Part shown: positions 3,505-21,530 of the stretch, piece by piece
Layout: each line of letters begins with the position of its first letter
Position numbering within the stretch: the first letter of the stretch is position 1
Source: a virus
Length of the DNA: 21,530 nucleotides
Virus record (IMG/VR): IMGVR_UViG_3300020198_000122
Span: 1-21,530 of that record
Direction: 5' to 3' (one strand)
Made by a program: the position numbers and the translations under genes
The notes under the pieces: model-generated
What the model was told of the DNA's origin: nothing
What the model saw: only the letters and a program-made list of their open reading frames with translations
Databases searched by the model: none

Positions 3505-3707
3505 TCGCCTTGCGCCTTCAACAGTTTGAATGCATCATCGGCATACAAGTTCCAGATGAGTCGATTCTGCGACGAATTATCTGTCATCGCCCATGTCAGA
3601 GCGATTGACAATGCTCTGTCAAAGTCTCGGCTGTCAATGTGCTCCCGATACTTGATGTATGCCATTACCCTGCGAGTAAATTTGGATCGTGTCTTGATTC
3701 TCGTCAT
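3489..3707 (-). CDS. Small basic early protein
   Basis: A 72-residue protein starting MTRIKTRSKFTRRVMAYIKY. The N-terminal 15 residues are strongly basic (six Arg/Lys), followed by a mixed helical region (RDFDRALSIALTWAMTD) and an Ala/Gly tail, so nucleic-acid or membrane-surface binding is possible but unproven. AGGAG lies 6 bases before the ATG. Its initiation region is an exact 22-base copy of that of the first gene in the operon. The local DNA looks less GC-rich than the structural genes. Confidence 0.75.
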   Translation of the reverse strand: MTRIKTRSKFTRRVMAYIKYREHIDSRDFDRALSIALTWAMTDNSSQNRLIWNLYADDAFKLLKAQGEGGAA

Positions 3708-3725
3708 GTGTCTCTCCTGTTTGGG
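3704..3725. repeat. Translation-initiation repeat B, copy 1
   Basis: A 22-base sequence containing the ATG and the CAGGAGAGACAC leader of the 72-residue gene is repeated exactly at 3936-3957 before the 67-residue gene. A degenerate relative (AAGGAGAGACTC before ATG) precedes the 126-residue gene at 2916. Confidence 0.85.
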
Positions 3726-3735
3726 GTTTGGTCGG

Positions 3736-3939
3736 TCAGTCGATGCTCTCGTCGCTGTTGGTCGGAACGCCTGCTCGCTGCGCCTGATGGCAGAGTCGGT
3801 CGTACCCGTTTGCGAGGATCGGGAAGCGATGCTGCATCTCCTCGAAACTCATCGCAGACTGGTCGTACATCGCGGTCAGCGAGACGATGATGTCTCGCAG
3901 TTCAGACTTGCGAAGGGTGATGGTGACTTCGTCGTTCAT
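3736..3939 (-). CDS. First gene of the early operon, small hypothetical protein
   Basis: A 67-residue protein starting MNDEVTITLRKSELRDIIVS. AGGAG lies 6 bases before the ATG and decides the start; the frame stays open upstream, but only through non-coding inverted repeats. The protein is helical and acidic, with FEEMQHRFPILANGYDRL in its second half. It follows the 294-base control region, so it is probably the first cistron of the leftward early transcript. No family was recognised. In phages this position often holds small host-modulating proteins. Confidence 0.75.
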   Translation of the reverse strand: MNDEVTITLRKSELRDIIVSLTAMYDQSAMSFEEMQHRFPILANGYDRLCHQAQRAGVPTNSDESID

Positions 3940-3957
3940 GTGTCTCTCCTGTTTGGG
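3936..3957. repeat. Translation-initiation repeat B, copy 2
   Basis: Exact 22-base copy of 3704-3725 at the start of the first early gene. Confidence 0.85.
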
Positions 3958-4233
3958 TCTCTCGATCGTCCCTCGCCACGCGGCGAGGACGGGACGATCA
4001 TACACCACAATCGGCGAGCGTGCGCCAGGACCCACAAAGATTCTCAAGAGTTCCCGACAACACCCCACGCCGCCTGCCATGTTTGGCATCTGTTCGGGGC
4101 TGCCGCCGAAAACAGACCGCCGCAGATGCCCTGTAGCGCGTCCGTAGGGGTCGGGTGGTATCTCCAGACCTCCGCCGAACCGAGGCTTCTAATGGCATCC
4201 ACGGCGATTTCGCATCTCGCGGCTGATAATGAA
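3940..4233 (-). promoter_or_regulatory. Non-coding control region between late and early operons
   Basis: About 290 bases with no convincing gene separate the structural-operon terminator from the first early gene. On the minus strand a possible -10 box TATGAT (3997-4002) lies close to the first early gene, but no good -35 box stands at the right distance. A 14-bp bulged hairpin (3964-3999) follows immediately, and an 8-bp inverted repeat pairs 4085-4092 with 4123-4130. The layout fits the leftward early promoter with operator or leader RNA structure. A replication or packaging element is also possible. Confidence 0.45.
3964..3999 (-). promoter_or_regulatory. Bulged hairpin overlapping the putative early promoter
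   Basis: Nine outer base pairs (3964-3972 with 3991-3999) and five inner ones (3973-3977 with 3982-3986) close a 4-base loop, with a 4-base bulge on one side. It abuts the TATGAT candidate at 3997-4002 and lies just before the leader of the first early gene. No T-run follows, so it is more likely an operator or a 5'-leader hairpin than a terminator. Confidence 0.5.
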
Positions 4234-4262
4234 ACGCCCTGCCGCTTGGGACGGCAGGGCGT
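4224..4262 (-). terminator. Intrinsic terminator of the structural operon
   Basis: A perfect 11-bp GC-rich stem (4234-4244 with 4252-4262) closes a 7-base loop and is followed on the minus strand by TTTCATTAT. It lies 19 bases after the zinc-ribbon gene stop, exactly where the late transcript should end. The plus-strand side has no T-run, so it acts on minus-strand transcription. Confidence 0.88.
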
Positions 4263-4281
4263 CAGAGTGAGAGAGACAGCC

Positions 4282-4593
4282 TCATCCTACGCGCTTGCCG
4301 TCCACTCGCAACTCGTAGGTGCTCCACTTCTTCTTCGGGCAGGCGGCGAGCGGTGCGGTCGTCTTGATGCTCAACTCGCTCCGCCGCCACATCGGACAGC
4401 CGCACCCCGTGCAGTACCCGATCTGCGGTGGCTGCGCGTTGCCTCGGTCGAGGAACTCGCACGATCGGCAGATGTTCCGCCGCGCCTCGATCGCGTCTGG
4501 GGCGATCTTGCAGAACAGCCGCGAGAGTTCAGCCTGCGTGTACGCGATCGCTTTCACGATGAAGCGGTGGTTGATGTTCTCTCTGCCGAGCAT
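4282..4593 (-). CDS. Small zinc-ribbon protein
   Basis: A 103-residue protein starting MLGRENINHRFIVKAIAYTQ. Cysteines are arranged as C42-x2-C45, then C61-x2-C64-x-C66, and CP at 85-86 followed by KKKW at 87-90. This pattern (CxxC, CxxCxC, then CP..KW) is one I recognise from small zinc-binding proteins that recur in phage genomes, often near structural genes. The metal-binding fold is well supported; the role is unknown, with virion assembly or transcription control both possible. The ATG shares a base with the previous stop (TGATG), and the gene is the last before the terminator. Confidence 0.82.
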   Translation of the reverse strand: MLGRENINHRFIVKAIAYTQAELSRLFCKIAPDAIEARRNICRSCEFLDRGNAQPPQIGYCTGCGCPMWRRSELSIKTTAPLAACPKKKWSTYELRVDGKRVG

Positions 4594-7500
4594 CACGGAC
4601 CCGTCGTGATCGAGATCGCAGGGAAGGAGAGCCAGTGGTACTTCTGGATGTTGTCGCCGCTGGCGACAAGCCCCATGCGCTGATCGCTGCGATCGTCGAT
4701 CGAGCAGCACTCGCTCGACTGGAGTTTGGGAGTACTTGAGAACGCTTGCATGATGAACGGCGTGCCGAGCACGCTCTCCTCCTGCGCGTGCCCGACGGGG
4801 TAGCGGCGAACCGCACCGCCTGCGGTCTGCTCGGTCGCACCGACAAAGCCGTTGAGTTTGTAGGTCTCGCTGCATGCGGGCTTCGTCGCCCATCCGGGGT
4901 TGAACGGGTCGTCGTAATACTGCGAGCCGGGCTTGAATGCGACAGGCTCTGCAGGCGCGTCGATCACCGACTCGACCGCGCCGCAGTGGTACTCGCCTGT
5001 GCCACCCAAGCCCGGCGACAGTGTCGTCGAGGCTCGCGCACACAGCGTCCCACTATTGCACCTATTCAGAGTCGTCTCTTGGCAGTTGTCGTCTTCGCAT
5101 CCCTCGGGGTAGTTGTCTGGATCATCGACCCAGTCATCGACAGTCTGATCGTTGCCCGTCTTCGTCTCGCTGTTGTTCACATCGCACACCCTCTGCAGCG
5201 GGTGCGGGTACTCGCAGCAGATCGCAGCACGATCCACGAGGTTCAGTGCGGTCGGCTCCATGCGAAACGGCACCGCGCCGTCGTTCCACTCATACGGTCG
5301 ATTCGTGAACCGAGCGAAGCAGATATTCGAGTCCTCGAACGGGCACTCGACAAGTGTGTCGCTCGTATTGGTCTGCGTTGTGATGGCGCAGCAGTCGCCC
5401 GTGGTTTGGACAGGTGTCTCGTAGCCTCGACACACAGGCTGCGAGCCGCCCGTGTAGAAGTGCGAGCGAGCGAACCGAGCGACGAGGATGCTGCTGTTCC
5501 ACGAGTACGCGACGCTCGATCCGAGATCATCGCACGCCGCCTGCACGCACAAGCCACCGTACGAGTACGAGGTGCTGTCCTGCGGCGACCCGTTCGTGCA
5601 CCACTGCGGCTGCAGTGAGAGTGGGTCGTCGTTCGTGCCGAGCGATGCGATGACCGTGCTCGAATCCTCGGGGTAGAACGCGCTGCCGCGATTGGTCAGC
5701 CATCGGAACCGACAGTCGAGCGCGACGCTCGTTCCGTCTTGAAAGAGTGCGCTCGTGTCCCATCCGATCGGCTTCGTGCGGAAGTAGACCGACTGCGTGA
5801 GACGCTGCCACGCGAAGTACGCCTCGTCATCGAACCGCTGCACCGTGCCCGTGCCTGTCGGCGTTGCCGTCGCCGTGAAGATCACGCCGACCGCATTGCT
5901 CGATGCGCCTGCCGTCGTGAAGTCTGTCGTGCCGATCGACGCGATCTTGTACTGCTCGCCGACTACGATCGTCGTCGCTGCCGTCGCCGTCTCGTAGAAG
6001 CCGCTCGGAGCCACAACAAGGTTGTAGATGTCCTTGTGCACTTGGAGCGTGACCGCGCCGCTGTCGCTGTCGTCCGCGTACTCCGATCCCATGCCCGTCG
6101 AATCGTCCTGACACCGAGCGAGTGACGGCGGTCTCGTGGTCGTGTCCACGAGTTTCGTCACGGGGTCGATGCGCCGCATGTCGAAGTAGTCGCCGCGCAC
6201 ACGCGCAGGTCCGACTGGCTTGAGTGCCTGCGCCGTCGTGTACTCCAGTTCGAGCGCAGCCATCTGCGTCCACGCCGAGTCGTGCGATGTGCGGAACACC
6301 GAAAGCGTCTGCAAGTCGTCCCAGATTTCCTCGCGCCAATCCTTGCAGGCGAGCATGTCCTCTGCCTCCGCTGTTCGCAGTGCCGCATCGACCGCCATGC
6401 ACTGATCCTGCCAGCCTTCGAGCGTCGGATCGAGGTCTTCAGGCTTCTGTGTCTGCTGCGGCGAGGTGTAGTTCCCATGCTCGCTGTGGTCGATCTCCGC
6501 GAGCGCGTATGTCAGATTGTCCGAACCGCCGCCGACTGCGCCCGTGCAGGTCATGTAGTTGGTCTGGAACGAGAAGATCGGGACCGCGTCCGCGATCTGA
6601 TGGAAGTACGACGGCAGAGCCTTTGACATGAGCGAGGCGTTGTTGCCCTGCGACAAGAACTGCGTCGTCGGCACATCGCCCTTCACATACGAGAACTCCT
6701 CCGCCGCGAAAGCGAAGAAGTAGCGGAACAGCCCGTGCGCTCCTTGCGCGTCCCAGTCGGTTGGATCGTCGATGTAGAAGGGTGCGGTGCTTCGAGCGTT
6801 GTAAGCGTCGATCGCTTCGTGCCGCTCGTAGTACGAGACTCGACCCCGGCGCAAGACGCTGCTCGGCGAGTTCACCATCACCCCGATCGCTTTGCCATCG
6901 TTGAAGTTCAGTATCTCCCAGATGTCTGGCGAGCGGTACTTCGCCGTCCTCACCTGATAGGTGGAGAGTCCCTGATTGCTGCGATCTTGGATCGTGGTAT
7001 TGCACACCGCGCCGTATGTGCCGTGTGCCTCGTACTGCTCCTCAATAGTCGCAGCGGGGTAGTACGGGTTGAATGACCACCAGTACAACGGTCCGAGGAA
7101 CTGCTGCTCGTATGTCCCCACAAGCGGCTCGGGGTTCGTGTCACCTGCGAGATAGCACGCATCGAAGTCCTCGGCGAACGCGCCGTCGATGCAGCGACCG
7201 CCTTGATCGTCCTCGCCGCATCGCTGCAGGGTCGTGCCTCCATCCGCCGGAGGGACCGACTCGAAGAACAGTGAATAAGTCGCCTCGCCGCCCGAGCAGC
7301 AGCAGGCGTTCGCGCCGGGGTAGTACAGGTCGAGTTCGAGACACCTGTTCTTCGTCCACCATATCCAGTGATTTGGCTCGTGATTCGATCCGCTCAATGC
7401 TTCGCTCGATGCCAGCGAGTACGGCACGACGATCGCCGCCCGCTCGTGTGCCGCCGTGCCAAGCCAGAGCGATTCGTCATCAGGTGTCAGCGGGTCGCAG

Positions 7501-13152: not shown

Positions 13153-13508
13153 GCCAAGCCCTCCACGGTCTGCAGCGACACGATCTGGTACGCGAGCCGA
13201 TCAGGTGTGGCGCGGAAGTCTGGAGTGTAGAAGCCGAGCACCTCGTAGGTCTTGCTCGAAAAGGAGATTCGCATACCCGTCGTTAGCGTGACCGAGATGT
13301 CGCAGTACCCGCGAGCGTCGAGCGAGGCGCGACGCGCACCTGCGACCACGGACTCCCTCGGCATCGCAGGCTGCAGGAACATCGTGAACTCCGTCCCAGC
13401 CGCCCACGATCGGATCACTGCGCCGCCTGCGTCCACCGTACTGTCGGTCAGGGTGAACGGAGTGACAGACACGCCGAAGCGGTCGATCGACGCTCGTATG
13501 TTGCTCAA
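13149..13508 (-). CDS. Head-closure protein (TTG start)
   Basis: A 119-residue protein reading MSNIRASIDRFGVSVTPFTL. The start is the TTG at 13508, which overlaps the connector stop (TTGA) and has GGGAGG placed closely upstream; the open frame upstream lies in another reading frame of the connector gene. The body is beta-rich and ends LGFYTPDFRATPDRLAYQIV, in keeping with small head-tail joining proteins of the SPP1 gp16/HK97 gp7 type that close the portal after DNA packaging. The family call rests on position, size and fold pattern. Confidence 0.8.
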   Translation of the reverse strand: MSNIRASIDRFGVSVTPFTLTDSTVDAGGAVIRSWAAGTEFTMFLQPAMPRESVVAGARRASLDARGYCDISVTLTTGMRISFSSKTYEVLGFYTPDFRATPDRLAYQIVSLQTVEGLA

Positions 13509-14377
13509 ACGACCTCCCGGTACTCGTTCAGCAGCGAGGCGAGCATCTCGTTCACCTCTGCCATCGTCGCCCTGCTGTACGAGTAGTCGCCGAGACTTTC
13601 GCTCGACAGGCTCCGATCCTGCTTGCGGGTCTGGTACAGCATCGCGGCGACCTCGCAGCACGCCTCTTTGAGATCGTCAGGCGTTGTCGTGTAGCCCGCC
13701 GTGTACTCGATCAGGACCGACTGGTACGCCGCAGGGAACCGAGCGAGGTAGGTGTCGCCGAGCGGGAACGCGTCCGACTGGATGTGCACGATGCCCGTAT
13801 CGCTCTCGTACACATACTCCGCACCGACCTCGGCGCAGTGGATGTTGACCGTCCCAGACAGGCAGTCGCCACCCGCACGCGGATGCAGTTGCGCCGTACG
13901 GCAGGCGAAGACCACGCTCGCCGACACGCCCGTCAGCGCATTGATCGCTGCCACCAGTGAAGTCACATCGGGGTAGGTTGAGAACGCGAGCGTAGTCGTG
14001 GTCGTCACGCCGCCGCTGGTCGTCCGCGAGATGACGAGACCCGGCGCACCTGTCCCGACCGCCTCGCTGTTCACGCTGACCGTGACGCGGAGATCGCTCG
14101 ACACCGTGCTCGACACCGTGAACGCCGTGCGGATGCCCGTGAACACGCCCGTCACGGAGTTGATCGGATACTGCTTTGTGCGGATCGCTCGCACCTTGTT
14201 CCCGCCGTACCACTCCGCGTAGGAGCGTGTCAGAACATTGCGCCCCATGTACGACTCGATGCGAGCGGTCGCACGGTCAATCGCACGCTCCAGCACCGTG
14301 TCGTCGCTCGAACTCGTGATTCCGAGGTGATCCTTCAACTCCTGCAGGGTGATGAGCGCGTAGGTGCCGACTGCCAT
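13505..14377 (-). CDS. gp6-like head-tail connector with inserted domain
   Basis: A 290-residue protein. Residues 1-60 (ALITLQELKDHLGITSSSDD, then AIDRATARIESYMGR) and residues 228-290 (VLIEYTAGYTTTPDDLKEAC, EVAAMLYQ, LGDYSYS) match the gp6-like connector family, which forms a ring under the portal. Ordinary members are about 100-200 residues long. Here roughly 100 residues of Thr/Val-rich beta sequence are inserted at about residues 82-190. AGGA lies 7 bases before the ATG. It opens the connector block after the methyltransferase-glycosyltransferase gene. Confidence 0.85.
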   Translation of the reverse strand: MAVGTYALITLQELKDHLGITSSSDDTVLERAIDRATARIESYMGRNVLTRSYAEWYGGNKVRAIRTKQYPINSVTGVFTGIRTAFTVSSTVSSDLRVTVSVNSEAVGTGAPGLVISRTTSGGVTTTTTLAFSTYPDVTSLVAAINALTGVSASVVFACRTAQLHPRAGGDCLSGTVNIHCAEVGAEYVYESDTGIVHIQSDAFPLGDTYLARFPAAYQSVLIEYTAGYTTTPDDLKEACCEVAAMLYQTRKQDRSLSSESLGDYSYSRATMAEVNEMLASLLNEYREVV

Positions 14378-14385
14378 GCCGAATC

Positions 14386-15663
14386 CTATCCCTGTGCTTC
14401 AGGCGGTCGCAGCGAGGTCGGCATCCGCCAGACCTTCTCGCGGTTGCGGACATACCACGGCTTGCCACCACGAAGCCACGAGAACATCGACTGGTACTCC
14501 TTGCCTTTGTCGGGAGTCACCCACGAGATCATGCACTCGATGTGTCCGATGTGGACCTTCGGCGAGATGCCGATCGTCCACCCGTGCTCCTTCGCCCTGC
14601 GCCAGAAGTAGATGTCGTCGTCCATGCGACCGTCGTTCCATGTCCCATCGGGCGCGGGTTCGCTCTTGAACCACGGCTTCTCCATCTTGCGGAGCGTTTC
14701 GAGCCTGATGAGCGTGAGACCGAAGTGCATCGTCGAGACGGGGAACCACGGCTTCGCCAAGTCCTCCGCCTTTGCAGGCTGAACGGTCCCGTCCTCAGCG
14801 ACCGTGTTGAACAGCGCGACATTGCGCTCGCGTCCCGCCTGCATCGGCGCGATCGCGTCCAGTCCTGCATCCTCCGCAATCTGACGCAGGCACACGATGT
14901 CCCTCCAGTCGAAGATCGAGTCGTAGTCGATCGTCAGTGCCCACTTGAGGTCGTCGCACGCCGCGCACGCTTCGAGCACGCGCTGAATGCCCTGCCCGTA
15001 GAACACGCCGATCGAGTTCTGCACCTGTATGCCCAACTGCATGCACGACTGCGACACGCAGAACATGTTGTCCGTCCACGCGAGCCTCGGCATCGTCATC
15101 ACCGCCCTCATGTCGCTGTACTTCGGCGGAGGAGCGTCGAAGACGGTGTTGCCGGGCTTGCGCCCTGCGAGGTTCAGCGAGAAGACATGGTCGCTGCATT
15201 CGCGCATCTTGTTGTCGCTGCCCGAGTAGTCGTTCTTCCACTCTGTAATGTCGACCAGCCCTTGCTGCTCCATTGCCGCTTTGAGTTTCGGGTAGTTCCA
15301 GAGTGTGCGGTGCGAGTCGTACGGGGTCGTCTGTCCGCCCATGATGTACGCCTCCCACGGGAACGGCGGCTTCGACTGGTCCTCGCTGTCACGGTCGAGC
15401 GCAGCGAGCCGCACGATCTCGTCGAAGTCAGGCACGGCGATCCGCAGGATGCCGCCCGGCTTGATCTTGCTCACCCAGTGCCGCAGCGTCTCCTCGACAT
15501 CGGTTCGCGGCAAGTGTTCGAGCACATGCGATGCGCGTATCTCTTCGAGGCTGTTGTCCTCGTATGGCAGCACACGAGCATCATGCTCCAGAGTCCAGTC
15601 GTGCGGCGTGTAGCCCTCGTAGCGTTGCGGTCCGCAACCGATGTCGATCTTCATGCCGCGCAT
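14386..15663 (-). CDS. Methyltransferase-glycosyltransferase fusion protein
   Basis: A 425-residue protein. Residues 1-165 look like a class I SAM-dependent methyltransferase: motif I IDIGCGP at 6-12, the post-motif stretch SHVLEHLPRTDVEETL near 45-60, and KPGGILRIAVPDF at 69-80. Residues 185-400 resemble a GT-A glycosyltransferase: a possible DxD motif at 246-248 (TIDYDSIF) and a second acidic patch MDDDIYFWRRAKEHGW near 347-362, with FWRRAKEHG typical of such enzymes. The ATG at 15663 is preferred over one at 15654 because GGGGTG is well spaced. It lies between capsid and connector genes, just after a terminator. Likely substrate is a sugar on the virion or host surface; this is inferred. 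Confidence 0.82.
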   Translation of the reverse strand: MRGMKIDIGCGPQRYEGYTPHDWTLEHDARVLPYEDNSLEEIRASHVLEHLPRTDVEETLRHWVSKIKPGGILRIAVPDFDEIVRLAALDRDSEDQSKPPFPWEAYIMGGQTTPYDSHRTLWNYPKLKAAMEQQGLVDITEWKNDYSGSDNKMRECSDHVFSLNLAGRKPGNTVFDAPPPKYSDMRAVMTMPRLAWTDNMFCVSQSCMQLGIQVQNSIGVFYGQGIQRVLEACAACDDLKWALTIDYDSIFDWRDIVCLRQIAEDAGLDAIAPMQAGRERNVALFNTVAEDGTVQPAKAEDLAKPWFPVSTMHFGLTLIRLETLRKMEKPWFKSEPAPDGTWNDGRMDDDIYFWRRAKEHGWTIGISPKVHIGHIECMISWVTPDKGKEYQSMFSWLRGGKPWYVRNREKVWRMPTSLRPPEAQG

Positions 15664-15672
15664 AGTACACCC

Positions 15673-15736: not shown

Positions 15737-16192
15737 TCAGTCTGGAGTCTGGACGAACGACGCTGCGCCAGCCGCCGAGTCGAGTGCGCTCTGTGAACCT
15801 CGTGCGAGGATCGCATGACTCGAACAGATTGCGGTAGCAGATGCAGGTGTGATGAGGATGCGGAAGTACCGCTTCTTGCCACGAAGATCGACATTCGCAA
15901 CGAACGACACATTCGTGACGCTCGTGTTTGCTCCGCCGATCGCGTTTGCCACGGTGTAATCCGTGCCAGCCACGAGACCAGTGACGGTTGCGAAGTTGCT
16001 CGCGACCGTATCGTCCGACTGCTGAATCGTGAGAGCCGAGAAGCCCGCCGTAGCGTGCGTCTGGCGCATCACACAAATCTGCAGTTCGCTGAAGCCCTTT
16101 GTGTCGATGTTGATGCTCGTCACGGTGGCATCGCTTGCAACGCTCTGCGGTGAGACGAGATTCTGATGCTTTACGCCTTGAAGTGAAAACAT
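15737..16192 (-). CDS. Putative capsid decoration or small virion protein
   Basis: A 151-residue protein starting MFSLQGVKHQNLVSPQSVAS. It is Ala/Ser/Thr-rich with beta-like strands (SFVANVDLRGKKRYFRILIT), which fits a virion structural protein. AAGGA lies about 10 bases before the ATG. It sits directly after the major capsid gene and before a terminator, the usual place for a decoration protein made in similar amounts. No family was recognised, so the role is inferred from context. Confidence 0.78.
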   Translation of the reverse strand: MFSLQGVKHQNLVSPQSVASDATVTSINIDTKGFSELQICVMRQTHATAGFSALTIQQSDDTVASNFATVTGLVAGTDYTVANAIGGANTSVTNVSFVANVDLRGKKRYFRILITPASATAICSSHAILARGSQSALDSAAGAASFVQTPD

Positions 16193-16213: not shown

Positions 16214-17626
16214 TTAGGCGCCTGCCTTGAGTGTGACGATCGAGCCCTTCTCAGTCGATGATCCGACATTCGCGTTGACGATGTCGAACCGAGAGATGCC
16301 GCGCACGGTGACGAGATCAGCCTCGAAGGACGAGGATGCCGAGTCGCTGAACGCGATCTGGTTCTGCTTGCGGTCGCCGAGCAGTGCTGCCTGACGAAGA
16401 TCGCCGAAGTGGAACATGACTGCGCCCGACCCGGTGACATTGTTCATCGCTTGCGCGAGAACGACTGGATACCCGAGGAAGCGGAGTTTGTTTGCTCCAT
16501 CGCCGAGTTCCACAACCGACGCGCCGCCTGCGCTTTCAGCAAGACGCTGGCAGAGCGAGTTGAACACGGTGCGGTGCATGTAGAACTTGGTGTTCGCGTT
16601 GTCCGCGTACTGTGGGAGAAGTCCCATAGCGTCGCGGATGTCTGCGAGGGTGATCGCAGTCATGGCGACCGAGGAGGTCTTGGTGCCTGCCGATCCGACC
16701 GCGCTCGCCAGTCCGACGATTCCACCGTAGGTCGATGTGCCATCACCGATGAAGCCGCACTGGTCCTCCAACTTGGACTGCGCGTACGCCATCTCGCCTG
16801 CGATCTGATCGGCGAGGTTCACCACATTGTCCTCGGCGAGTTCGCCGCTGATCTGGGTGAGCACGACCGACTTCTTGGCGACGAGCGTCACGAGGTCGAA
16901 GTTCTGCTGCGTTTCGCTCGCGGCTGATGCCTCGCCCACGAAGGACGCGGTCAGAGCCGAGATGCGACGCGGCACCTGCAGTACATCGCGCTCCATGCTG
17001 AGCACATTGGCGTTCTGGCGGAAGATGCCGAACGACTCGCGCAGGTTGATGAGCGTGTTGTTGAACTGGTCAGGCACGAGGTAGCCGCCGAGCGTGTTGT
17101 TGCCCGACAGATGATCCTTCGTGATGAGCCCCTTCTCGACACACCAGTCGCGGGACTTGATGTGCCCGCGACATGCGAGAACGAAACGACCGAAGCCGTA
17201 GGCTTCCTCGCTTGTCTGAAAGTGCTTGCTCCGAGCAAGCGGTTGAGAGATGTCCATAAGTTGAGTTTCCTTTGTTGCGATTGGGTGAGATGCGGAGACC
17301 TGCGTCTCCGCCTTGAGTGCCTTGACAGCCTCGACGACAAGCGACTTAGCGGACTTCTCTTCGTCCTCCTCGTCGTCTGCCATCTTCGGCTCCTGTGGCT
17401 TCTCCTCGTCCTCGGGCTTCATCGCGTCCTCTTCACTTGCTGCAGCAGGCTGCAGTGTGACCTTGTATTCGATGTTGTCGGGATCGACGGGGTTGCCCTC
17501 AGCGTCCACGATGACGAGACCTTCCAAGATCAGATTCTTGGCTGCCTCGTATCGCTTCGCGCCGACCTGATTGGCGAGTGACTGCAGATGCTTCTGCAAC
17601 TCCTCGACCGTGATGGTCTTGAGCAT
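16214..17626 (-). CDS. Major capsid protein (HK97 fold)
   Basis: A 470-residue protein starting MLKTITVEELQKHLQSLANQ. The ATG at 17626 is chosen because GGAG lies 6 bases upstream; the longer open frame has no such site. Residues 1-150 are helical and very acidic (around residues 82-108, PEDEEKPQEPKMADDEEDEE), acting as the scaffold-like region removed by the protease. From about residue 185 the HK97 pattern follows: NTLGGYLVPDQFNNTLINL, VLQVPRRISALTASFVGEAS, the GELAEDNVVNLADQIAGEMA helix and the FIGDGTSTYGGIVGL loop. It assembles the icosahedral head. A stem-loop lies directly before its ribosome binding site. Confidence 0.93.
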   Translation of the reverse strand: MLKTITVEELQKHLQSLANQVGAKRYEAAKNLILEGLVIVDAEGNPVDPDNIEYKVTLQPAAASEEDAMKPEDEEKPQEPKMADDEEDEEKSAKSLVVEAVKALKAETQVSASHPIATKETQLMDISQPLARSKHFQTSEEAYGFGRFVLACRGHIKSRDWCVEKGLITKDHLSGNNTLGGYLVPDQFNNTLINLRESFGIFRQNANVLSMERDVLQVPRRISALTASFVGEASAASETQQNFDLVTLVAKKSVVLTQISGELAEDNVVNLADQIAGEMAYAQSKLEDQCGFIGDGTSTYGGIVGLASAVGSAGTKTSSVAMTAITLADIRDAMGLLPQYADNANTKFYMHRTVFNSLCQRLAESAGGASVVELGDGANKLRFLGYPVVLAQAMNNVTGSGAVMFHFGDLRQAALLGDRKQNQIAFSDSASSSFEADLVTVRGISRFDIVNANVGSSTEKGSIVTLKAGA

Positions 17627-17636
17627 TGTGATCTCC

Positions 17637-19575: not shown

Positions 19576-19825
19576 CGTTCACCTCCAGCCATGCGCGACC
19601 ACGAGCGGCAGCGTCCGCCCAAGCCGCAGCCTGATCCTCACCTGCATGCGCGATGATGAAGGCAGACTCAAACATGATGTCGATGTGACGCACCTGACGG
19701 TCCATGCACGACCGCGTGTACTCGCTCGGCATCTCGTGCGTCAGTTCAGCGATGCGCTCAACCGCCGCCTGCGTCGCCTCGACGAAGAACTCCGCTCGCT
19801 CTGGTGTTTCGCGTGGGTTCACCAT
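19568..19825 (-). CDS. Small helical hypothetical protein
   Basis: An 85-residue protein starting MVNPRETPERAEFFVEATQA and ending RGRAWLEVNDA. It is acidic and helical. The ATG at 19825 overlaps the fibre-gene stop by seven bases; another in-frame ATG lies at 19849 (eight residues longer), and neither has a clear ribosome binding site, so the start is uncertain. An open frame continues far upstream but only as a shadow of the fibre gene. Function is unknown; it forms a coupled pair with the next small gene. Confidence 0.72.
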   Translation of the reverse strand: MVNPRETPERAEFFVEATQAAVERIAELTHEMPSEYTRSCMDRQVRHIDIMFESAFIIAHAGEDQAAAWADAAARGRAWLEVNDA

Positions 19826-21530
19826 GTTGCTATCGCCACTCGCTTCCATGTGTTCGTTGCCGTGCAGACATAGATGTAGTTCTCGTCGTGGCAGATGTCG
19901 CCCTTGATTCCCGTCGTACCTGTTGTCGCGATGGTGCGCTGGGTCACGAGCCGCAGGTTCTGACCGCTCACGATCAGCGTGCTCGATGTCGTCCCGTCCA
20001 CCGTGGTCTGCGTGGTCGTCGTCGAGTTGATCAGCGTGGTATTCGAGCCTGATCCTGTGCGGTTGTATCCGATGACGATGCAGTTGTCGTCGGTCGCCGT
20101 GCCGACGGTTGACTGCGAGCCGAGGATGACATTCTGATCGGCACTCGTCGCTGTGCCTCCTGCGTTGTTGCCGATGAAGACATTGTTGTTGCCTGTCGTC
20201 AGGACATCGCCCGCCTGATATCCGATCATCGTGTTGGCGGTGCCGTCGTTCCTGTCGCCGCCAGCGAAGTAGCCCACGCCCGTGCAGAAGGTGCCATCGT
20301 TGTCGTACAGCGCGTCCGCGCCGACACCGACACACGATGAGCCTGTGTTCGAGAAGAGTGCGCCGGGACCGATGCCCATGCACGAGGTCGCCGTGTTGCC
20401 GTTCAGCGCGTTGTAGCCGATCGCCACGATCTGGGAGCCTGTGTTGTTGAGTCCTGCGTTCTGACCGACACCGACGCAGATGTTCTTGTTGTTGCCCGAG
20501 AGCGCAGACTGACCGAGTGCAGCGCATGTCGTCGGATCAGGTGCGCTTGCGCTGGCTGTGCCGACCGTGATGCCGCTGACCGTGCAGTCCTTTGCGAAGC
20601 CGCCGCCACCGCTCACGATCAACGCACCCGTGGTGTTGCTTGTGCTCGCCTGTGTGCTGCCGACTCGCACCGCCTTCGCTGCTGCAATGCCGCCCGAGCA
20701 GACGATCGCGCCCGTGCTCGTCGATGAAGTCTCGGTCGTATTCGACACTGTCAACACACCCGCAACGCTGCCTGTGCCACCAATAAACGCTGCACCGCTA
20801 ACACCGATGCCACCCGTAATCACGACTGACGCTGCTGTCGTGCTCGTCGCAGTTGCCTCCTCGGTAATTGCCACTCGATTAGTTTCAATGCTGTTGGCAA
20901 TCACCGAAAAGGTCAGTTGCCCGTCGATCGAGCCTGCTGTGACATCGCTGATCTGCGCGTGGATGTTCGCGTAGGTTTCCTCGTTGCTGAGGCTGTCGTT
21001 TCCACGGAAGCGGATGCGACCGAGCGTGTCGTTGTTCGCAGGCGTTGCACTAAGCCTCGTCAGCACGAGATCAGGAGCAGCCTGTGCTCCATCCGCCTCA
21101 CTCTTCACCGTTAGCGCATCGACGGGGAGTGAGGTTGCGCCGATATTGACGACTAATGCACCGTTGCTCGACCACTGAGGACCGCCCGTGGAGAGTTTCG
21201 CAGGCGTGATCGTGCCGTCGTCGATCGTCCACACGAGACCGCTGCCGCTGACCGTGATGTCGCCGTAGTCGCCGTCCGCGAGCGTTGCCGATGTGCCGTC
21301 CGCGCCTCGCTCGCCCTTCGGTCCACGCGATCCCGTCTTGCCTGCCTCGGCGAGCACCTGCCATCCCGAGCCTGTCACGGGCGACTGCATCGTCGCCGCC
21401 ACACACACGAACGCGCCGCCCTCATACCCGACGATGTCGCCGACCTCGTACCGCTGACCCTGCGAGTACGCGCCGCGCCACCGCAGCCCGTCCGCGCCCG
21501 GCTCACCCTGCGGACCCTGAACGCCCTGCT
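19819..21530 (-). CDS. Composite collagen-like tail fibre protein, 5' end cut by window edge
   Basis: About 569 residues are visible. At the edge lies a collagen-like GVQGPQGEPGADG stretch, then a module of W-RGAYSQGQRYEVGDIV type (about 21493-21345) resembling the CBM5/12-like domains common in phage fibres, then a second collagen-like GSRGPKGERGADG. Next come Gly/Ser/Thr repeats of the GIGVSGAAFIGGTGSVAG kind. Then, at about 20090-20520, are repeats with GxNA/IGxxA spacing (GYNALNGNT, GADALYDNDG) like trimeric YadA-type heads. The protein ends WKRVAIATW. It probably forms a trimeric host-binding fibre. A GTG at 21408 is not the true start, because homologous sequence continues upstream to the edge. 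Confidence 0.87.
   Translation of the reverse strand, partial: QGVQGPQGEPGADGLRWRGAYSQGQRYEVGDIVGYEGGAFVCVAATMQSPVTGSGWQVLAEAGKTGSRGPKGERGADGTSATLADGDYGDITVSGSGLVWTIDDGTITPAKLSTGGPQWSSNGALVVNIGATSLPVDALTVKSEADGAQAAPDLVLTRLSATPANNDTLGRIRFRGNDSLSNEETYANIHAQISDVTAGSIDGQLTFSVIANSIETNRVAITEEATATSTTAASVVITGGIGVSGAAFIGGTGSVAGVLTVSNTTETSSTSTGAIVCSGGIAAAKAVRVGSTQASTSNTTGALIVSGGGGFAKDCTVSGITVGTASASAPDPTTCAALGQSALSGNNKNICVGVGQNAGLNNTGSQIVAIGYNALNGNTATSCMGIGPGALFSNTGSSCVGVGADALYDNDGTFCTGVGYFAGGDRNDGTANTMIGYQAGDVLTTGNNNVFIGNNAGGTATSADQNVILGSQSTVGTATDDNCIVIGYNRTGSGSNTTLINSTTTTQTTVDGTTSSTLIVSGQNLRLVTQRTIATTGTTGIKGDICHDENYIYVCTATNTWKRVAIATW

Follow-up and report, generated by a model that had tools for sequence, protein, structure and literature searches.

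To our knowledge, glycosylation of the virion has been documented in only a few groups of phages. In mycobacteriophages, subunits of the capsid and of the tail tube have been reported to carry glycans (Freeman et al. 2023, as summarized in PMC12619734 and PMC11256854), and the A197 protein of Sulfolobus turreted icosahedral virus (STIV) is essential and possibly glycosylates the virus's own capsid protein (PMC10551542).

The window analyzed here, a stretch of 21,530 nucleotides of viral DNA (IMG/VR record IMGVR_UViG_3300020198_000122), carries on its minus strand a gene, MT-GT, in which a methyltransferase (MT) domain is followed by a glycosyltransferase (GT) domain. The preliminary description of this DNA had read this domain order from motifs in an ORF of 425 codons on the minus strand at 14386–15663. 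Pfam, PHROGs, an AlphaFold model, and fold searches now agree on the two domains, and the motifs IDIGCG (motif I), DYD, and DDDIYFW are all present. The ORF is a real gene, but its start at 15663 does not stand. In relatives, the protein is conserved only from Met4 of the longer ORF (MK-I/L-D/N-I/L-G); the first three codons of that reading, MRG, are not conserved, with IRT or LLA in their place, and a conserved −10-like box (TAnnnT) runs into the ATG at 15663. Because conservation begins at Met4 and the upstream ATG overlaps this box, MT-GT is best taken as 14386–15654 (minus strand, 422 amino acids), with the ATG at 15654 as its likely start.

An AlphaFold model based on 47 diverse sequences, which are relatives at 31–90% identity, reached a pLDDT of 87.6 and a pTM of 0.58; a first model, made with 12 close homologues (pLDDT 54), was set aside in its favor. 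The predicted structure has no long membrane helix, and with this pTM it is uncertain how the two domains are placed relative to each other. When compared with two near relatives, dN/dS is about 0.15–0.17 in the MT half and about 0.13–0.16 in the GT half, so that neither half is decaying.

The N-terminal half is a class I SAM-dependent methyltransferase by family profile, Rossmann-type fold, and SAM motif. The domain spans residues 1–168 (15151–15654, minus strand) and scores 23.2 bits against Methyltransf_11 in Pfam, for which the gathering cut-off is 21.2; it also matches phrog_6636, annotated as ‘methyltransferase’, at 2e-8, and the corresponding part of the model superimposes on the class I methyltransferase 1vl5 with a Z of 13.4 in VIA-align. 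Motif I, DIGCG, lies at 15645–15631 (minus strand), and the alignment of the 47 sequences contains a glycine-rich, GxG-type SAM motif. In this alignment Gly6, His43, Glu46, and His47 are invariant, with Gly8 (at least 90%) and Asp19 nearly so. Sequence and profile searches against solved structures returned only weak methyltransferase matches, among them a D-glucose O-methyltransferase at an E value of only 0.03. Pfam detected no PF05050 (FkbM) match in the window's protein.

The C-terminal half had been proposed to adopt a GT-A fold, and the fold search of the model bears this out: residues 173–376 (14527–15138, minus strand) match many GT-A structures in VIA-align, with Z values of 13 to 18. 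The matches include STIV A197 (Z 18.4), LH3 (17.6), mimivirus R699 (16.6), B4GALNT1 (15.9), and TarP (14.7). By sequence, this half gave weak GT2-type Pfam matches, a match of 8e-9 to phrog_1574, which has no assigned function in PHROGs, and nothing convincing among solved structures. Asp243 and Asp245 of the DxD metal/nucleotide-sugar motif (DYD, 14928–14920, minus strand) are invariant in all 47 sequences, as are His310, Asp345 and Asp347 (DDD, 14622–14614, minus strand), Trp351, Gly370, and His371 (14544–14542, minus strand). By its predicted fold and DxD motif the C-terminal half is thus a GT-A glycosyltransferase, for which sugar transfer is predicted, and the enzyme as a whole is presumed to be catalytically active.

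MT-GT sits among head genes on the same strand, as the preliminary description had placed it and as Pfam and PHROGs confirm. Upstream lie the gene for the major capsid protein (16214–17632; Phage_capsid 5e-40; phrog_10) and a small gene for a putative decoration protein (15737–16192; phrog_5707, 7e-13), a label that derives from its position and size; the head–tail connector gene (gp6-like, 13505–14377; Phage_connect_1 4e-13, phrog_442 8e-32) starts 8 nucleotides past the MT-GT stop codon. Elsewhere in the window, a 529-residue ORF with repeated GxGxxAL-type motifs (19819–21408) resembles a fiber protein or trimeric adhesin; it lies upstream of the head morphogenesis gene, which is an odd site for a fiber gene.

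To see how this position is kept, we scanned viral contigs with search patterns drawn from the MT-GT protein itself, which are blind to neighboring genes. With the window protein as seed, 27 viral loci were found, and a profile scan extended the relatives down to 31% identity; the relatives found are uncultivated contigs. A major capsid gene lies upstream on the same strand in each of the 52 unique contigs whose upstream sequence exceeds 2.2 kb, at a median distance of 578 nucleotides (range 80–2357), and a small phrog_5707-type gene precedes MT-GT in 48 of them. Most often the genes run capsid, small ‘decoration’ gene, MT-GT, connector. When the scans were seeded with the capsid protein instead, MT-GT was found downstream in 37 of 46 informative contigs, a further 14 contigs having ended too early to be counted. 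The nine contigs that do not carry it are all distant from the window: in four of them (L113–L116) the small gene is followed directly by the connector gene, in three (L118–L120) two other ORFs occupy the gap, and in the remaining two (L126 and L034) none was detected. The phrog_5707-type gene is present without MT-GT in L113–L116 and L126. Whole-record searches for a copy of MT-GT elsewhere in L113, L115, L120, L126, and L127, records that may be fragments, found none. In L120 (9830–10980), both ORFs in the slot lack a PHROG match and look by eye like further decoration-type proteins. In L126 (6813–9107) and L127 (6831–9125), the capsid protein forms the C-terminal part of a 764-residue ORF, perhaps a protease–capsid fusion.

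Pairwise distances between MT-GT proteins follow those between the capsid proteins (Mantel r 0.89 for 44 contigs; none of 2000 permutations as high), but the correlation is only 0.26 for the most divergent pairs, whose identities are saturated. The GC content is about 0.62–0.63 at the MT-GT gene and similar in its flanks. In the window's lineage, MT-GT is a core gene that is inherited with the capsid gene.

The slot holds fused, split, duplicated, and FkbM-extended versions of the enzyme, even beside capsid proteins that are unrelated in sequence, and in L090, L091, and L092 the adjacent capsid protein belongs to another PHROG family. In L091 and L092, MT and GT are separate adjoining genes that follow a phrog_371-type capsid protein; an MT-FkbM-GT chain is encoded in L090 and L093, and in L090 it stands behind a phrog_9953 capsid protein. 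Triple fusions with FkbM also occur in L072, L086, and L088, and L054 has a separate FkbM-type gene. Behind the capsid gene of L073, the slot contains an FkbM-MT-GT chain (4632–6602) together with a sulfotransferase-like gene (3569–4294; Sulfotransfer_1, 8e-8). The FkbM domain PF05050 is present in the chains of L073 and L090. Glycans are common substrates of FkbM methyltransferases and sulfotransferases, and the genes found in the slot therefore fit with a glycan product. A second copy of MT-GT follows the connector gene in L072 (3660–4880) and L122 (9562–10692).

The terminator that had been noted upstream of MT-GT is an intrinsic one closing the capsid unit, with a 13-pair stem and a T-rich tail (15711–15682, minus strand); it is kept in relatives, and across the clade the sequence of the stem varies while its pairing is preserved by covariation. 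Between it and the gene lies the −10-like box TACTAT (15662–15667, minus strand), 7 nucleotides before the ATG at 15654 and without a Shine–Dalgarno sequence. A TAnnnT box stands 6–7 nucleotides before the ATG in 38 of 38 clade loci, which comprise 24 distinct sequences and ten box variants, and a Shine–Dalgarno-like 4-mer was found in none of them. Outside the clade, the box was found in 0 of 11 loci and a Shine–Dalgarno-like 4-mer in 8 of 11. The terminator and the box together suggest that MT-GT has a putative leaderless promoter of its own, and thus a conserved leaderless promoter within a phage head module appears likely. TANNNT is the common −10 motif in Mycobacterium tuberculosis, in which leaderless transcripts are abundant (PMC3898074); as to the host, this likeness is only a hint. 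No terminator-like site was found between MT-GT and the connector gene.

These observations offer an attractive explanation for the function of the protein. We consider it rather probable that MT-GT is a bifunctional late enzyme that adds a glycan to the virion and methylates it, most likely on a virion protein. The GT-A domain would transfer a sugar, with a nucleotide sugar as donor; the class I methyltransferase domain would use SAM to methylate that sugar or an adjoining one. The sugar would most likely be attached to the capsid protein or to the product of the small gene directly before MT-GT, and the particle would carry a short methylated glycan, which in some relatives may be further methylated or sulfated. 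In the window's lineage, the terminator would separate the enzyme gene from the abundantly needed capsid genes, and MT-GT probably begins its own leaderless transcript, which would separate enzyme dosage from capsid dosage.

Other explanations have to be weighed against this one. The preliminary description had seen in MT-GT a moron-like layout. On the moron reading, the gene would be recently inserted cargo with no relation to the head module. An upstream terminator, a conserved promoter-like box of its own, and the distant lineages that lack MT-GT or have other ORFs in the slot would all suit a moron, but no terminator-like site precedes the connector gene 8 nucleotides downstream. The comparison of presence and absence among related phages, moreover, showed the gene to be a conserved head component, found at the same site in every informative close relative, which refutes a recent insertion for the window's lineage; with its divergence alongside the capsid protein and its ordinary base composition, we regard this explanation as scarcely credible. 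The suggestion in the same description that the enzyme both makes and methylates a glycan on the virion is by contrast supported by the domains, the fixed slot, and the co-divergence with the capsid protein. That description left the target as either the capsid or the host surface, and here we favor the virion. Phages are known to alter host glycans, and some of the GT-A fold matches, such as TarP and RmlT, glycosylate cell-wall polymers; the enzyme could thus act late on a surface glycan of the host, for instance to mask the receptor against re-adsorption to debris or infected cells. The place next to the capsid gene could also be a matter of late expression and not of a substrate in the capsid. 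Modification of the host surface is the main rival, yet we judge it unlikely, given that the slot is fixed beside the capsid gene, that the two proteins diverge together, that the gene persists beside different capsid families, and that the predicted structure has no long membrane helix.

The methyl acceptor may also be something other than a sugar. The two domains would then have different targets, the GT domain modifying a virion protein and the MT domain a protein or some other molecule, with the fusion only tying their dosage. The separate neighboring genes in L091 and L092, the loose domain arrangement indicated by the pTM, and the general nature of the methyltransferase matches are in line with such a division, which we nevertheless find somewhat more doubtful than action on the host surface: FkbM domains, commonly sugar O-methyltransferases, join the same chain in L072, L088, L090, and L093, and a D-glucose O-methyltransferase is among the solved-structure matches, if only at the marginal E value given above. 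Glycosylation or methylation of bases in the phage DNA as a defense against restriction is less likely than modification of the host surface, and we consider it improbable. Some viruses are known to encode glycosyltransferases by which DNA is hypermodified (Pyle et al. 2024, as cited in PMC12619734), but MT-GT lies among head genes rather than replication genes at every site examined, and its methyltransferase is more like small-molecule and sugar enzymes than like DNA methyltransferases.

A tblastn search of 50,697 deposited phage records with the window protein and two divergent versions found no MT-GT fusion; it returned single-domain matches and separate neighboring MT, GT, and MT genes in MW202524. 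This record (L136, MW202524.1), a podovirus from Manatee Spring, has the three genes adjacent at 5408–7226 and further glycosyltransferase genes upstream; the 598-residue upstream neighbor has no PHROG match, so that capsid adjacency is unproven there. Searches with the GT half gave weak matches, mostly in large cyanophages. In a scan of cellular genomes with narrow peptide patterns, which could miss rare copies, only methyltransferase-domain matches appeared, and no description of a head-module MT-GT was found in the part of the open literature covered, which is not proof that it is undescribed. The parts of the protein are of known kinds; new are their combination in one chain, their fixed place behind the capsid gene, and their spread through uncultured phages.

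As MT-GT is a fixture of the capsid-adjacent spot in many uncultured phages, these phages probably sugar-coat their own particles. More broadly, we propose tentatively that many uncultured lineages of tailed phages, some with sequence-unrelated capsids, may carry a dedicated capsid-glycan cassette at a constant position after the capsid gene, with a one-chain glycosyltransferase–methyltransferase as its core and, in some, FkbM methyltransferases and a sulfotransferase. If so, methylated sugars on phage capsids would be common in nature, although the fusion is absent from deposited phages. Phage capsid glycans bear on the stability of the particle, on adhesion, and on immune recognition. With a gene that keeps its place next to the capsid gene in phages that have diverged deeply, they become a testable and possibly widespread trait, and the fusion offers a specific case in which sugar transfer and methylation may be coupled.

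Among known systems, PHROG 6636 (methyltransferase) and PHROG 1574 each match one half of MT-GT at about 1e-8; each covers a single domain, and neither captures the fusion or its location among the head genes. The virion glycosylation of mycobacteriophages involves phage-encoded glycosyltransferases, and the window likewise encodes one. The glycosyltransferase genes of phage Maravista are found close to the 3′ end of its genome, unlike MT-GT, which lies behind the capsid gene. Mimivirus R699 and the collagen glycosyltransferases LH3/COLGALT1 have a GT-A fold and act on protein side chains, and they match MT-GT with Z values of 14.4 to 17.6; identities are about 9–15% and the partner domains are others, and a common fold shows no common substrate. 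While STIV A197 differs from MT-GT in being a single domain without a methyltransferase, in belonging to an archaeal virus, and in sharing only 13% identity, it is likewise a virus-encoded GT-A protein, and its structure (PDB 2c0n) is the top VIA-align match, with a Z of 18.4 over 165 residues.
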